DNA of 59,961 nt. Source: a virus. Each line of letters opens with the position of its first letter. The stretch's first letter is position 1. Below the pieces are notes generated by a model that worked only from the letters and a program-made list of their open reading frames with translations, searched no databases and was not told the DNA's origin. Shown one piece after another: positions 45,189 through 59,961 of this stretch. The DNA is taken from IMG/VR virus record IMGVR_UViG_3300008264_000012, positions 1 through 59,961 of that record; one strand, given 5' to 3'. Made by a program: the position numbers and the translations under genes.

Positions 45189-45671
45189 TTAATCAATCTT
45201 TACCTTCTTGGTTTCAGGAATTGTTGGTTTGACCTTTGATAAAGTCACCCTCAACAACCCATTTTCAAACTTTGCACTGGGATTATTTCTATCTATTTGA
45301 TCTCCCAAAGTAAAACTTCGTTTAAAGCTACTATGTTTCAATTCCCTACGAATATACTTTCCAGTTGATTCTCTACCATCAACATTTTTAATCTTTTGAC
45401 CACTAATGGTAAGCACGTTCTCTTGTACATCCACAGATACTTCATCTTTGGATAGACCAGGAATTTCAGCTAGAATTTCTACACGGTCATTGTAATCAAC
45501 AACATCTACACGGGGATAACTTTGTTTTTCAAAAAAACCAACACCTAACTCTTTATTTAGTTCTGGGAAATGTGCCGCAAATACTTCATCGAATACGCGG
45601 TCAAATGGTGTTAAAAACTCATCACGATCAATGTGTCGCAATGCAAACGGACTATATTTAATTACTGACAT
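45189..45671 (-). CDS. Small heat shock protein, Hsp20 family
   Basis: A 160-residue holdase chaperone. The alpha-crystallin domain (about residues 50-140) is clear: PRVDVVDYNDRVEILAEIPG, LSKDEVSVDVQENVLTISGQ, and the closing AKFENGLLRVTLSK. Phage Hsp20 is known in cyanophage-type T4-like viruses and probably helps fold structural proteins. It has its own terminator and a long leader with a Shine-Dalgarno (AAAGAAAGG) plus two palindromic elements, so it is regulated as a separate unit. Confidence 0.95.
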   Translation of the reverse strand: MSVIKYSPFALRHIDRDEFLTPFDRVFDEVFAAHFPELNKELGVGFFEKQSYPRVDVVDYNDRVEILAEIPGLSKDEVSVDVQENVLTISGQKIKNVDGRESTGKYIRRELKHSSFKRSFTLGDQIDRNNPSAKFENGLLRVTLSKVKPTIPETKKVKID

Positions 45672-56334: not shown

Positions 56335-57903
56335 ATGAATGAAATAAATTACACCGAAGAGTTGTATAAAGAATTTTTAAATGAAGCTGGTTTTTTAGAT
56401 AAATTAAAAGGATCAGTGGGTTTAGGTGGAAAAAAAGAATTGTCACCTAACGATCTTGAAGTTTTGGATAAAAATGTAGATGCTCTTTTAACTAGTATTG
56501 CAAGTGAAATAGGATCAACCAAAGAAAATCTTATTAATGATCTCACAAATGGGCCAAGTAAAGATTTAATTACCCCCGAAATAATTCAATATGCAACACA
56601 ATTGATAGATTTATCAAATAAGATTAAATCGGTAAGAAGTACAACAGGCACTGCTGGCACAACAGACACTGCTGGCACAACAGACACTGCTGGCACAACA
56701 GGCACAACAGGCACAACAGGCACAACAGACACAACAGACACTGCTGGCACAACAGGCACAACAGGCACAACAGACACAACAGGCACACAAGGAAGATCTG
56801 GATATCAAAGTAAAAAGATTGATGATTTAAATTTTGGCGATGATATTGGTAATGGTACTATTTTAAAACAAATAAATGTAAGTAAAATAAAACAAGATTT
56901 TGATAATTTATATAACAATTTGCCAGTAGATGCCAAGAATGTTTTAAATAATATAACAAATGATACTAAAATAATACCTAAAAATATAGAATTGCCTATT
57001 AGACCGCCTGTTATAAGAACTCCTCCTGTTATAACAGAAATAGATGAATTATCTTATTGGGATGATAGTCGTAGAAAAAATGAATTTATAAATAATTTCG
57101 AAACGATAATTAAATCAATTACACCTTCATTAGGTATTGAACCATACGAACTTAAAAAACTTTATATCATTTTACATAAAAATGGCATAGGTGATATTTT
57201 CAATAAATTATATGCAACATATACTGTATTAAAAGCTGGCAAATCTATAAAAGATGCTTTTTCAAATGTATCATCGCCAAGTGATCCAGGCACTGCTGGT
57301 ACAACAGGCACTGCTGGTACAACAGGCACAACAGGTGTAGAAGAAGATAAATTGACACCTGATGAAATAAATAAATTTGGGGCTTATTATTCACAATTAA
57401 TAAGACTTCAATCCGAACTCAAAAAAGGATTAGGCAAAGATTTACAAATGAATAAAAGTGTAAGCAGATATTTTTCCACTTTAAAAAATTCATTAGAATC
57501 AACAAGACTTCTTGATTTTATTTCGGTTGAAAATAAACCTATAGCCAAAAAATTAAAGAAAAAATTTATCAAAAGATTTTTATGGGAATTAAACAACACT
57601 CCGTCAATTTCTCAGGTCAAAGATTTAATTGGTAAAATAAATGAACAAGAATCGGTGGGATCTGGAAACACATCGACCAATTTATTAGCACAATCCACAT
57701 CTATAATTGAAGCTATAAATAAAAGTTTGCCTGCAATGGTAATGTTATTAAAAGAACTTTCTAAAAGTAAGTTGTCTTCAGATGAAGATAAAATGTTGAT
57801 GGGTGTTTTAAAGAAATTCTTAAAAGCGATAGTTAATAAAAATACACAAGATTTGGTAGTAGATCCCAAAGTAAAAAATGCAATCACCTCTTTATCAAAA
57901 TAA
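56335..57903 (+). CDS. Putative internal head protein with capsid-targeting-like leader and TGT repeats
   Basis: A 522-residue protein. The N-terminus MNEINYTEELYKEFLNEAG has EFLNE-A, very like T4 internal-protein leaders MKTYQEFIAE-A, which are removed by gp21. Residues about 102-152 and 319-337 are TGT/TAG/TDT repeats. Between and after them are charged helices (for example LSYWDDSRRKNEFINNFETI and ELKKLYIILHKNGIGDIF). It begins one nt after the previous gene's stop. An internal protein processed by the prohead protease is the best guess from the leader. Confidence 0.72.
   Translation: MNEINYTEELYKEFLNEAGFLDKLKGSVGLGGKKELSPNDLEVLDKNVDALLTSIASEIGSTKENLINDLTNGPSKDLITPEIIQYATQLIDLSNKIKSVRSTTGTAGTTDTAGTTDTAGTTGTTGTTGTTDTTDTAGTTGTTGTTDTTGTQGRSGYQSKKIDDLNFGDDIGNGTILKQINVSKIKQDFDNLYNNLPVDAKNVLNNITNDTKIIPKNIELPIRPPVIRTPPVITEIDELSYWDDSRRKNEFINNFETIIKSITPSLGIEPYELKKLYIILHKNGIGDIFNKLYATYTVLKAGKSIKDAFSNVSSPSDPGTAGTTGTAGTTGTTGVEEDKLTPDEINKFGAYYSQLIRLQSELKKGLGKDLQMNKSVSRYFSTLKNSLESTRLLDFISVENKPIAKKLKKKFIKRFLWELNNTPSISQVKDLIGKINEQESVGSGNTSTNLLAQSTSIIEAINKSLPAMVMLLKELSKSKLSSDEDKMLMGVLKKFLKAIVNKNTQDLVVDPKVKNAITSLSK
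56641..56790. repeat. Tandem repeat encoding TGT, TAG, TDT triplets
   Basis: In-frame short repeats (ACAGGCACAACAGACACAAC-type units of 9-24 bp). All units are multiples of three, so copy number can vary without breaking the frame. Confidence 0.88.
57287..57337. repeat. Second tract of the same TGT/TAG repeat
   Basis: A shorter copy of the 56.64 kb tract in the same gene, separated by about 500 nt of non-repetitive sequence. Confidence 0.85.
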
Positions 57904-58272: not shown

Positions 58273-58458
58273 TTATTTAGTTGGATCTCCAATTGAAGCT
58301 TCTTCTACAATCGCTTTAATTTCAGATTCAATTTCTTTCATGCGATCTTTGTAGCCAGCAGCTACATCCTTGAAGTCTTTCTTAACGTGTAAGAGATCTT
58401 CGGTTAGTTGATATACTTTCTTTTCGGCTTCAGCCTTTGTTAGTTTAATATTACTCAT
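58273..58458 (-). CDS. Hypothetical 61-aa helical protein
   Basis: A charged helix (LTKAEAEKKVYQLTEDLLHV) with no membrane segment. Its ATG overlaps the stop of the ADP-ribosyltransferase-like gene by 4 nt. It may be a partner of that protein, but function is unknown. Confidence 0.7.
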   Translation of the reverse strand: MSNIKLTKAEAEKKVYQLTEDLLHVKKDFKDVAAGYKDRMKEIESEIKAIVEEASIGDPTK

Positions 58459-58865
58459 AACTGTTTTAAGTCTATAATTTTGGTTACTGCTTCTATCGGT
58501 ATATAACTAGTAACATAATTGCCTGGATCTACATTTTTTAAATCGGGTAACTTACTTTTATCTATTACTACTACTATACCTTCTCCTTTGTCTCTGTAAT
58601 TGACCAAGGCAAATCTAGCTGCCAATTTAAAATCACTCGCTAGATAACTACCCACAATGTTTCGGGTATTTCCCCTACCTTTTGAAGTAACTTTACCAGT
58701 ACTCTTCAAAATATTATATTCTTTCTCAGACATTCCTCTATAAAGTTTAGTACTGTCTGTAGGAATTTTATCTAACTCATCGGCGATATACTGTAATTTT
58801 CCAGTTGGTTCCCATACTAGATAATCATATATGCTAGATTCGTATAATAAACTATATCTTTTCAT
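58455..58865 (-). CDS. Probable ADP-ribosyltransferase-fold protein
   Basis: A 136-residue protein. KLYRGMSEKEYNILKSTG (about 40-57) carries the conserved Arg of the R-S-E class; GSYLASDFKLAARFAL (about 72-87) fits the Ser strand and NAD-binding helix; GIVVVIDKSKLPDL and NYVTSYIPIEAVTKI supply the ending with a possible Glu (about 128). This layout fits small phage ADP-ribosyltransferases such as T4 ModA and Alt, but the exact catalytic Glu (usually ExE) is not clear. TATTTATA lies five bases before its ATG. Host polymerase or another protein may be the target; inference only. Confidence 0.62.
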   Translation of the reverse strand: MKRYSLLYESSIYDYLVWEPTGKLQYIADELDKIPTDSTKLYRGMSEKEYNILKSTGKVTSKGRGNTRNIVGSYLASDFKLAARFALVNYRDKGEGIVVVIDKSKLPDLKNVDPGNYVTSYIPIEAVTKIIDLKQL

Positions 58866-59108: not shown

Positions 59109-59494
59109 TGGTGGAGATGGCGGGGAGTCGCACCCCGCGTCCATAAAAAATTATTATTACCAGACTACACGTTTATATATTTTAAATTGTTAGGGGTATA
59201 TAATGAAAAATATCTAAAAATATTACCCTTAAGATTTACTAATTTCTCGACCATTTTGCGCAAATCAAACATTTGGTCCAGTCCAATAATTTACACCCAA
59301 CACAAATATCAGACTTCATCGTGTCAGATGGTGCGACAACTTAGGCCGCAACGGCTACGTCATCATAAGAGAAGTCGTAGCTGATTACATTATCTTCAGC
59401 AGTTAATGTTGTAATAGATGTATTAAAGAGGCCAACTATTATCCTCTACGTGCCTAACAATAGATATTTATCTATGTCGAAACTACGCATCCCC
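59109..59494 (-). ncRNA. ssrA: tmRNA (ssrA), phage-encoded
   Basis: Rescues stalled ribosomes and tags the incomplete protein. The 5' end GGGGATGCGTAGTTTCGAC pairs with the 3' end CATCTCC-A-CCA as a 7-bp acceptor stem with G3-U70, the alanine identity pair. The T arm GCGGG...CCCGC and loop TGCGACT are present, and CCA is encoded. The tag frame reads AEDNVISYDFSYDDVAVAA then TAA (59341-59400), ending in the AA degron used by ClpXP-type proteases. Length 386 nt. Confidence 0.95.
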
Positions 59495-59518
59495 ATAAAA
59501 TTTTAAAAGAACTGAAAT

Positions 59519-59592
59519 TGGAGCGGGTAGCCGGAATCGAACCGGCACATCGACCTTGGCAAGGTTGCAGGCTACCACTACATCATACCCGC
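59519..59592 (-). tRNA. tRNA-Gly (GCC)
   Basis: Acceptor GCGGGTA pairs with TACCCGC, the discriminator is T and CCA is encoded. D arm and T arm (GCCGG TTCGATT CCGGC) are complete. Anticodon GCC lies at 59558-59560 in the loop TTGCCAA. The anticodon stem has one A-C mismatch. It lies 24 nt upstream of the tmRNA on the same strand. Confidence 0.95.
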
Positions 59593-59602
59593 GCTCTCAA
59601 CA

Positions 59603-59961
59603 TTAATATATAGTTGATTTTTTAGAAATACAATTTTTTAATTCACAAATTACATTTTCTTCAAGACCATATATCAATTTTATATTATTTTCAGAAATAA
59701 CTCTTGATATTTTCTCTCTGTCTTTTTCAAGTTTATATTTGTTTTTTGGATCTAAATACAAATTGTGTTCAGGTAAATAAAAATCGGGATAATATCTTCT
59801 TTTTCTTCCATCAACATCAGTCCATATAAAATTAATTTTTCTATCTCGTATCCATTTAATATTATTAATATCTAACCATTTTGCAATATTAACTTCCCAG
59901 CTTGAATCCATCCAAATATTATTATATTTATATTTTTTAAAGTTAGTCTCACCACCACAAT
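59603..59961 (-). CDS. Homing-type nuclease C-terminal part, 5'-truncated by the window edge
   Basis: The frame is open to the last base of the window. The visible part begins CGGETNFKKYKYNNIWMDSSW, with a Cys-Gly-Gly zinc-finger-like start. It continues WMDSSWEVNIAKWLD and KRRYYPDFYLPEHNLYLDPKN, the strand-loop-strand of a PD-(D/E)xK-type or Vsr-like nuclease that commonly ends phage homing endonucleases. The D/E-x-K catalytic core would be PDF plus LDPK. The rest of the gene lies outside. It neighbours tRNA-Gly and tmRNA on the same strand. Confidence 0.72.
   Translation of the reverse strand, partial: CGGETNFKKYKYNNIWMDSSWEVNIAKWLDINNIKWIRDRKINFIWTDVDGRKRRYYPDFYLPEHNLYLDPKNKYKLEKDREKISRVISENNIKLIYGLEENVICELKNCISKKSTIY

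Follow-up and report, generated by a model that had tools for sequence, protein, structure and literature searches.

The window analysed here, a linear virus record of 59,961 bases, belongs to a freshwater or marine phage related to Flavobacterium phages. It carries T4-like terminase, portal, head protease and baseplate genes, and its closest isolates are Flavobacterium phage immuto (terminase 52%, portal 53%) and Microcystis phage Mel-JY01 (56% for both). Close to one contig end, on the minus strand, lies a one-piece tmRNA gene (ssrA) of 386 nt (59109..59494), which matches the full length of the Rfam model RF00023 (model positions 1-374, 109.7 bits, E 5.5e-42 with cmscan; cut-off 47 bits), the tmRNA helices being present in the alignment. 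The gene starts 24 nt after the end of a tRNA-Gly(GCC) gene (59519..59592, minus strand; RF00005 and ARAGORN), at 59494 as against 59519. This is the last tRNA of an array that is flanked by the C-terminal part of an endonuclease- or homing-endonuclease-like gene (59603..59959, minus strand; PHROG endonuclease 8e-9, homing endonuclease 5e-4), itself cut by the contig end.

Direct reading of the minus strand gives an acceptor stem in which GGGGAUG (59488..59494) pairs with CAUCUCC, including the alanine identity pair G3-U70, and the latter strand is followed by discriminator A and an encoded CCA (59109..59119, also placed by the RF00023 cmscan alignment). The tag reading frame (59341..59400, minus strand) runs from GCU to GCC over 19 codons (59400..59344) and ends with UAA (59343..59341), encoding the 19-aa peptide AEDNVISYDFSYDDVAVAA. 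The original prediction of a complete tmRNA with alanine identity pair, encoded CCA and a 19-residue tag, next to a tRNA-Gly, is therefore confirmed, and the gene is supported as a genuine, complete tmRNA owned by the phage.

Two parts of the tRNA-like domain (TLD), on which the original prediction is silent, depart from the usual form. The D loop CGUAGUUUCGAC (59476..59487, minus strand) has UAG in place of the UGG found in canonical relatives and in the Rfam consensus. The T arm (59120..59138, minus strand) has a 6-bp stem, GCGGGG/CCCCGC, and the loop UGCGACU, and appears in the cmscan alignment as a 2-nt insertion, i.e. an arm 2 nt longer than the tmRNA family consensus. The TLD is thus 7/6 rather than the canonical 7/5, and the gene lacks the 5-bp T stem, the UUCRA-type T loop and the D-loop GG of the canonical subtype. 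A 7/5 TLD is usual yet not obligatory for tmRNA, since alpha tmRNA departs from it too. ARAGORN, when run on the window, called the tRNA-Gly(GCC) but missed the tmRNA because of this unusual T arm.

The leader contains a boxA-like element, GUUCUUUUAA (59503..59512, minus strand), just before the mature 5' end. Its function as a boxA is presumptive; the boxA-like pattern occurs upstream of 31 of 56 phage tmRNAs, compared with 17 of 8600 random windows. The form GTTCTTTTAA, directly before the mature tmRNA 5' end, is frequent in the phage clade and was found with 7 of 113 Bacteroidota tmRNAs.

Tag family, locus and host

A scan of IMG/VR with the start of the tag retrieved 85 viral stretches, more than 60 of which contain a phage tmRNA with the same tag family. 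Typical tags of relatives are AEDNVVSYDFSYDDVVALAA and AEDNVISYNFTSRDAVALAA, and a more distant phage encodes ATKKSKVISYNFTSRKEVALAA. The gene order tRNA-Gly, tmRNA, orf71, orf136, orf61, PhoH is common, in whole or in part, to more than 60 relatives; in these the tmRNA terminates an array of up to 18 tRNAs, whereas the window contig is cut inside the array. Recurrence of the tag family in so many viral contigs, with one gene order, shows that it did not arise by chance. Its pN/pS of 0.25 (16 distinct tag sequences of 20 aa) indicates selection on the tag as a peptide.

Long tmRNA tags are also known elsewhere, and neither phage tmRNAs nor tags of this length are new. The statement that the tag is longer than the common ones holds, the commonest length being 10 aa (PMC11915505), although length as such is not a novel feature. 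Nothing indicates that the tag redirects degradation, as had been suggested, for it ends in the usual (V/L)AA. The tmRNA may conceivably help when host tmRNA is limiting, as was also suggested. It had also been proposed that the host be predicted by tag comparison. This proved fruitless, as a degenerate tag pattern found no match among 84,980 GTDB species genomes. The tags of 120 extracted Bacteroidota tmRNAs are 9-aa peptides of GENNYALAA type, but these were selected by that pattern and are uninformative on other Bacteroidota tags.

The tmRNA is less than 900 bases away from the contig end, as might be expected of host contamination or a prophage edge, and a host genome with the same tmRNA had been named as the observation that would expose such an origin. 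No such genome was found with the tag pattern among the GTDB species. With one syntenic locus in more than 60 viral contigs, and T4-like genes on the window contig, host contamination is excluded and the likelihood of a prophage edge is negligible.

The balance tips slightly towards a host in the Bacteroidota. A cyanobacterial host was considered and rejected: in terminase and portal, Mel-JY01 is roughly as near to the window as the Flavobacterium phages are, and the window tag may resemble cyanobacterial tags, but psbA is absent from every relative, from immuto and from Mel-JY01 itself. The gene for bS21 is present in Mel-JY01 only and not in the relatives. No tmRNA was found in Mel-JY01 or immuto; a 17-bit match in the former was rejected as part of a tRNA. 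A search of 18 relatives, all of them contig fragments, revealed no SmpB gene, and use of the host SmpB is therefore presumed.

Other features of the window include a 136-aa ORF (orf136; 58455-58865, minus strand) that by eye resembles an ADP-ribosyltransferase (RGMSEKEY motif) and has no Pfam or PHROG match, a 522-aa protein with collagen-like GTT/GTA/TDT repeats (56335-57903, plus strand), and a phage HSP20 small heat-shock gene near the tail genes (45189-45671, minus strand; Pfam 6.7e-19). Amongst the genomes drawn with the Bacteroidota, one titled as a Limnohabitans MAG (L244) carries a Bacteroidota tmRNA, which points to a mislabelled or mixed bin.

Two types of TLD in sister phages

The relatives split into two types according to the TLD. 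Type A, that of the window, has a (C/U)GUAG D loop, a 6-bp T stem GCGGGG/CC(C/U)CGC and the T loop UGCGACU. Type B is canonical, with a GGGCRYR acceptor strand, the D loop ACUGGU, a 5-bp T stem and the loop UUC(G/A)ACU; ARAGORN calls type B tmRNAs, but not those of type A. Within type B the acceptor stem shows compensatory pairs (AUG/CAU, GCG/CGC, GUG/CAC, ACA/UGU, GUA/UAC) with G3-U70 kept, and compensatory changes are found in the T stem too. In type A the model fold of the P2 helix (-28.4 kcal/mol) is less stable than competing hairpins (-35.0 kcal/mol).

Pairs of closely related phages differ in type almost exclusively at the two ends of the gene. When L150 (type A) is compared with L131, L158 and L100 (type B), the two types share 97% identity in the downstream flank and mostly 92-100% in the tmRNA body, whereas the first ~37 nt are only 42% and the last ~52 nt 66-75% identical. 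Similarly, L118 (A) and L099 (B) share 99.7% identity over 633 bp upstream and 98.0% over the body, but identity falls to 46% and 61.5% in the terminal blocks, and the genes downstream are not the same. Although distant in the DNA, the two exchanged blocks are pairing partners (acceptor, outer P2, T arm), and both end at one and the same level of the inner P2 helix. An acceptor stem forms within each type, whereas a type B 5' end does not pair with a type A 3' end. In a PhoH tree the A/B label switches at least 4 times on branches with good support, and both types are found with identical PhoH genes. The 7/6 TLD of the window gene was, in all likelihood, obtained by such a domain exchange. Type B spans the whole clade, including a deep branch, while type A is confined to one part of it, so type A is probably the derived form.

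A mosaic of this kind could also be produced by the assembly of mixed phage populations. In two contigs, L103 and L108, the 5' end is of type B and the 3' end of type A, and the two ends do not pair; these contigs may be either real broken recombinants or chimeric assemblies. As an explanation of the A/B pattern as a whole, an assembly artefact is nevertheless very improbable, because the many complete cases with matched ends, of both types, come from separate metagenomes, and each type builds its own acceptor stem where mixed ends do not.

The route of exchange might involve endonucleases. In L090 (2706-3681), which is closely related to the window phage, an element of ~650 bp that carries a gene for an endonuclease (PHROG 8e-19) lies within the tmRNA 3' end; it rebuilds a complete T arm with a different stem sequence and leaves a remnant of the old 3' end downstream. 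The gap between tRNA-Gly and tmRNA (window 59495-59518) is a cargo site, with the same cargo beside both A and B types. In relatives it holds 9-28 nt, an 84-aa ORF, or 750-2160 nt with ORFs that by eye are methyltransferase- or glycosyltransferase-like. Together with the endonuclease-like gene flanking the tRNA array, these observations make it plausible that endonuclease-driven conversion replaces the TLD ends.

The 7/6 TLD in other phages

A scan with the pattern GGTGCGACTCC-N(8-12)-TCCACCA retrieved 77 contigs, 70 of which have the spacing 8 that corresponds to a 6-bp T stem. When C70 replaced U70, the same T arm at the same spacing was found in no contig (versus 70 with U70), indicating that the alanine wobble pair is required and that the matches are not due to chance. 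With spacing 7 (5-bp stem), the same T loop occurs mainly in permuted tmRNAs of alphaproteobacterial type. The 7/6 pattern was absent from 395 Bacteroidota genomes. Two groups of candidates were rejected, namely the T arm of cyanophage 9515-10a, which has an ordinary TTCAACT loop, and the GOLLD-associated matches L320 and L338, in which a tRNA near the GOLLD RNA has the T loop GGTGCGACTCC.

The 7/6 TLD is found in three gene architectures. One-piece tmRNAs occur in unrelated phages (the L331 group, L346, L356, L348, L330 and L354; RF00023 61-104 bits), with tags such as ANFDSFDYALAA (L331 group), ANFDANAYSLAA (L346) and ANFNDSAYALAA (L356). Two tmRNAs, L336 and L355, are permuted. TLD-only RNAs of 81-85 nt are present in ~32 contigs (28 of one group, L169, L167/L168 and L321), of which the L167/L168 case is the least certain, being located inside a possible reading frame. 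Those of 85 nt (7/6, G3-U70, CCA) lie directly upstream of a protein gene in GC-rich phages and have covarying helices; they are carried by L322-L327, L329, L333, L334, L337, L339, L340, L342-L345, L349-L351, L353, L357, L362-L366, L368, L370 and L169. In L383 and L392 the same elbow occurs in an 81-nt TLD-only RNA whose T stem has 5 bp, and a run of T follows the RNA. Rfam and ARAGORN made no call on any TLD-only RNA tested, and none of the complete 7/6 genes tested was called by ARAGORN, so surveys based on this program may undercount phage tmRNAs.

Across 11 distinct sequences of the 7/6 TLD, all 143 cells are paired and 7 pairs have changed on both sides; covariation is 0.583, compared with 0.152 in shuffled alignments and ~0.10 or less in slid controls. 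The 12 distinct sequences of the TLD-only group have 96.7% of cells paired and 8 two-sided pairs. Conservation of U70, of the T loop and of its two closing pairs is partly built into the search pattern, which fixed them, and conservation of the acceptor into the choice of cases, for which full acceptor pairing was required; no such effect attaches to the first four T-stem pairs. The D loop has two nucleotides before UAG (or CAG) in 12 of 13 distinct 7/6 cases and three in most 5-bp cases, so that a shorter D loop accompanies the longer T stem. We are confident that the 7/6 TLD of the window gene is real.

A tmRNA TLD is normally held to a 7+5 stack and an elbow of G18-U55 and G19-C56. In the alpha-type elbow the G18-U55 of the canonical form (PMC7912444) is replaced by A-G. 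In the Rfam alpha consensus the D loop contains UAG and the second T-loop position is G (uAGG/GGC, against UAG/UGC in the window), and the elbow of the window gene is therefore of alpha type; the new element is the extra T-stem pair. An earlier reading of the UGC/UAG elbow as unique to phages was dropped for this reason. The alpha and permuted tmRNAs (RF01849, RF04321) share D-loop UAG and a T-loop xGC elbow with the window gene, but are circularly permuted with a consensus T stem of 5 bp in Rfam, whereas the window gene is in one piece, its 5' half before its 3' half, with a stem of 6 bp.

Possible roles of the exchanged TLD

Phage-encoded tmRNAs are well documented, with 402 phages listed (PMC9004378). 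Like those of mycobacteriophages Bxz1 and Wildcat, Bacillus phage G, Streptomyces and Stenotrophomonas phages and the OM43 phage Melnitz (PMC4131195, PMC9004378), the window gene is a complete ssrA gene of a tRNA-rich phage, with no SmpB gene found in its relatives. The window tmRNA differs from them in its tag family, in the 7/6 TLD and in the exchange of this TLD between sisters. When the T-arm region was searched for in the isolate collection, the best matches were shorter by 2 nt, though a different stem with the same loop would escape such a search. Neither the 7/6 class, nor its exchange between sister phages, nor the spread of TLD-only relatives is described in the limited open-access sample of the literature.

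The window gene is probably a phage tmRNA that uses the host SmpB and has an alpha-type elongated TLD acquired by exchange; as judged from its sequence, it very likely encodes a working molecule. Produced together with the tRNAs of the phage array, the tmRNA would receive alanine from the host AlaRS via G3-U70 and be carried into stalled ribosomes by the host SmpB. There it would add a phage-specific tag of 19-20 aa ending in (V/L)AA, which host ClpXP-type proteases should read. The TLD is a distinct phage-borne form in which an alphaproteobacterial-type elbow (D-loop UAG, T-loop UGC) is combined with an extra T-stem pair in a 13-bp acceptor-T stack. It was most likely placed, by exchange of the two mutually pairing terminal blocks, on a tmRNA body that in sister phages keeps the canonical 7/5 domain.

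Alternatively, the gene might be a phage tmRNA of the ordinary sort whose tag is on the long side, with an additional T-stem pair that arose by neutral drift without consequence. The abundance of phage tmRNAs and the presence of the alpha-type elbow in alphaproteobacterial tmRNA are consistent with this, but it is rather unlikely given that covarying 7/6 forms turn up repeatedly in unrelated phages and in three architectures, that the D loop is one nucleotide shorter in nearly all distinct cases, and that the A/B exchange has been repeated. Type A genes might instead be antagonists, whose TLD binds SmpB or AlaRS and dampens host trans-translation, the tag being a relic. The same 7/6 TLD does form the covarying TLD-only RNAs, and strong inhibition of tmRNA, perhaps through titration of SmpB, is described for a molecule resembling the TLD-only tmRNA of mycobacteriophage DS6A (PMC4131195). 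The phage TLD-only RNAs described above seem to be molecules of that kind, which have no tag frame, unlike the window gene. In A and B alike, tag frame, stop codon and body are kept under peptide-level selection, which makes an antagonist improbable.

The reason for the exchange might lie in escape from TLD-recognising nucleases, a suggestion we offer only tentatively. A match to another AlaRS, SmpB or EF-Tu partner is possible, as is antagonism of host tmRNA by analogy with the proposal for the TLD-only RNA (PMC4131195). Bacterial tRNA-Sec, with its 8/5 fold, also has an AT-stem of 13 bp (PMC5330540), and a stack of this length could hinder EF-Tu. The likeness is an analogy only, as the window TLD is 7/6 rather than 8/5, lacks an anticodon arm and has alanine identity.

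Conceivably, though this is somewhat doubtful, the 7/6 TLD defines a phage-specific class of trans-translation RNA, a movable domain in one-piece, permuted and stand-alone forms that is kept because it alters contact with host SmpB, EF-Tu or TLD-cutting nucleases. If so, phages would steer or block host ribosome rescue. Through its recurrence and its repeated exchange between near-identical phages, the 7/6 form offers a natural test of which TLD features SmpB, EF-Tu, AlaRS and nucleases require, and the TLD-only RNAs suggest that phage interference with ribosome rescue may be far commoner than the single example of DS6A implies.
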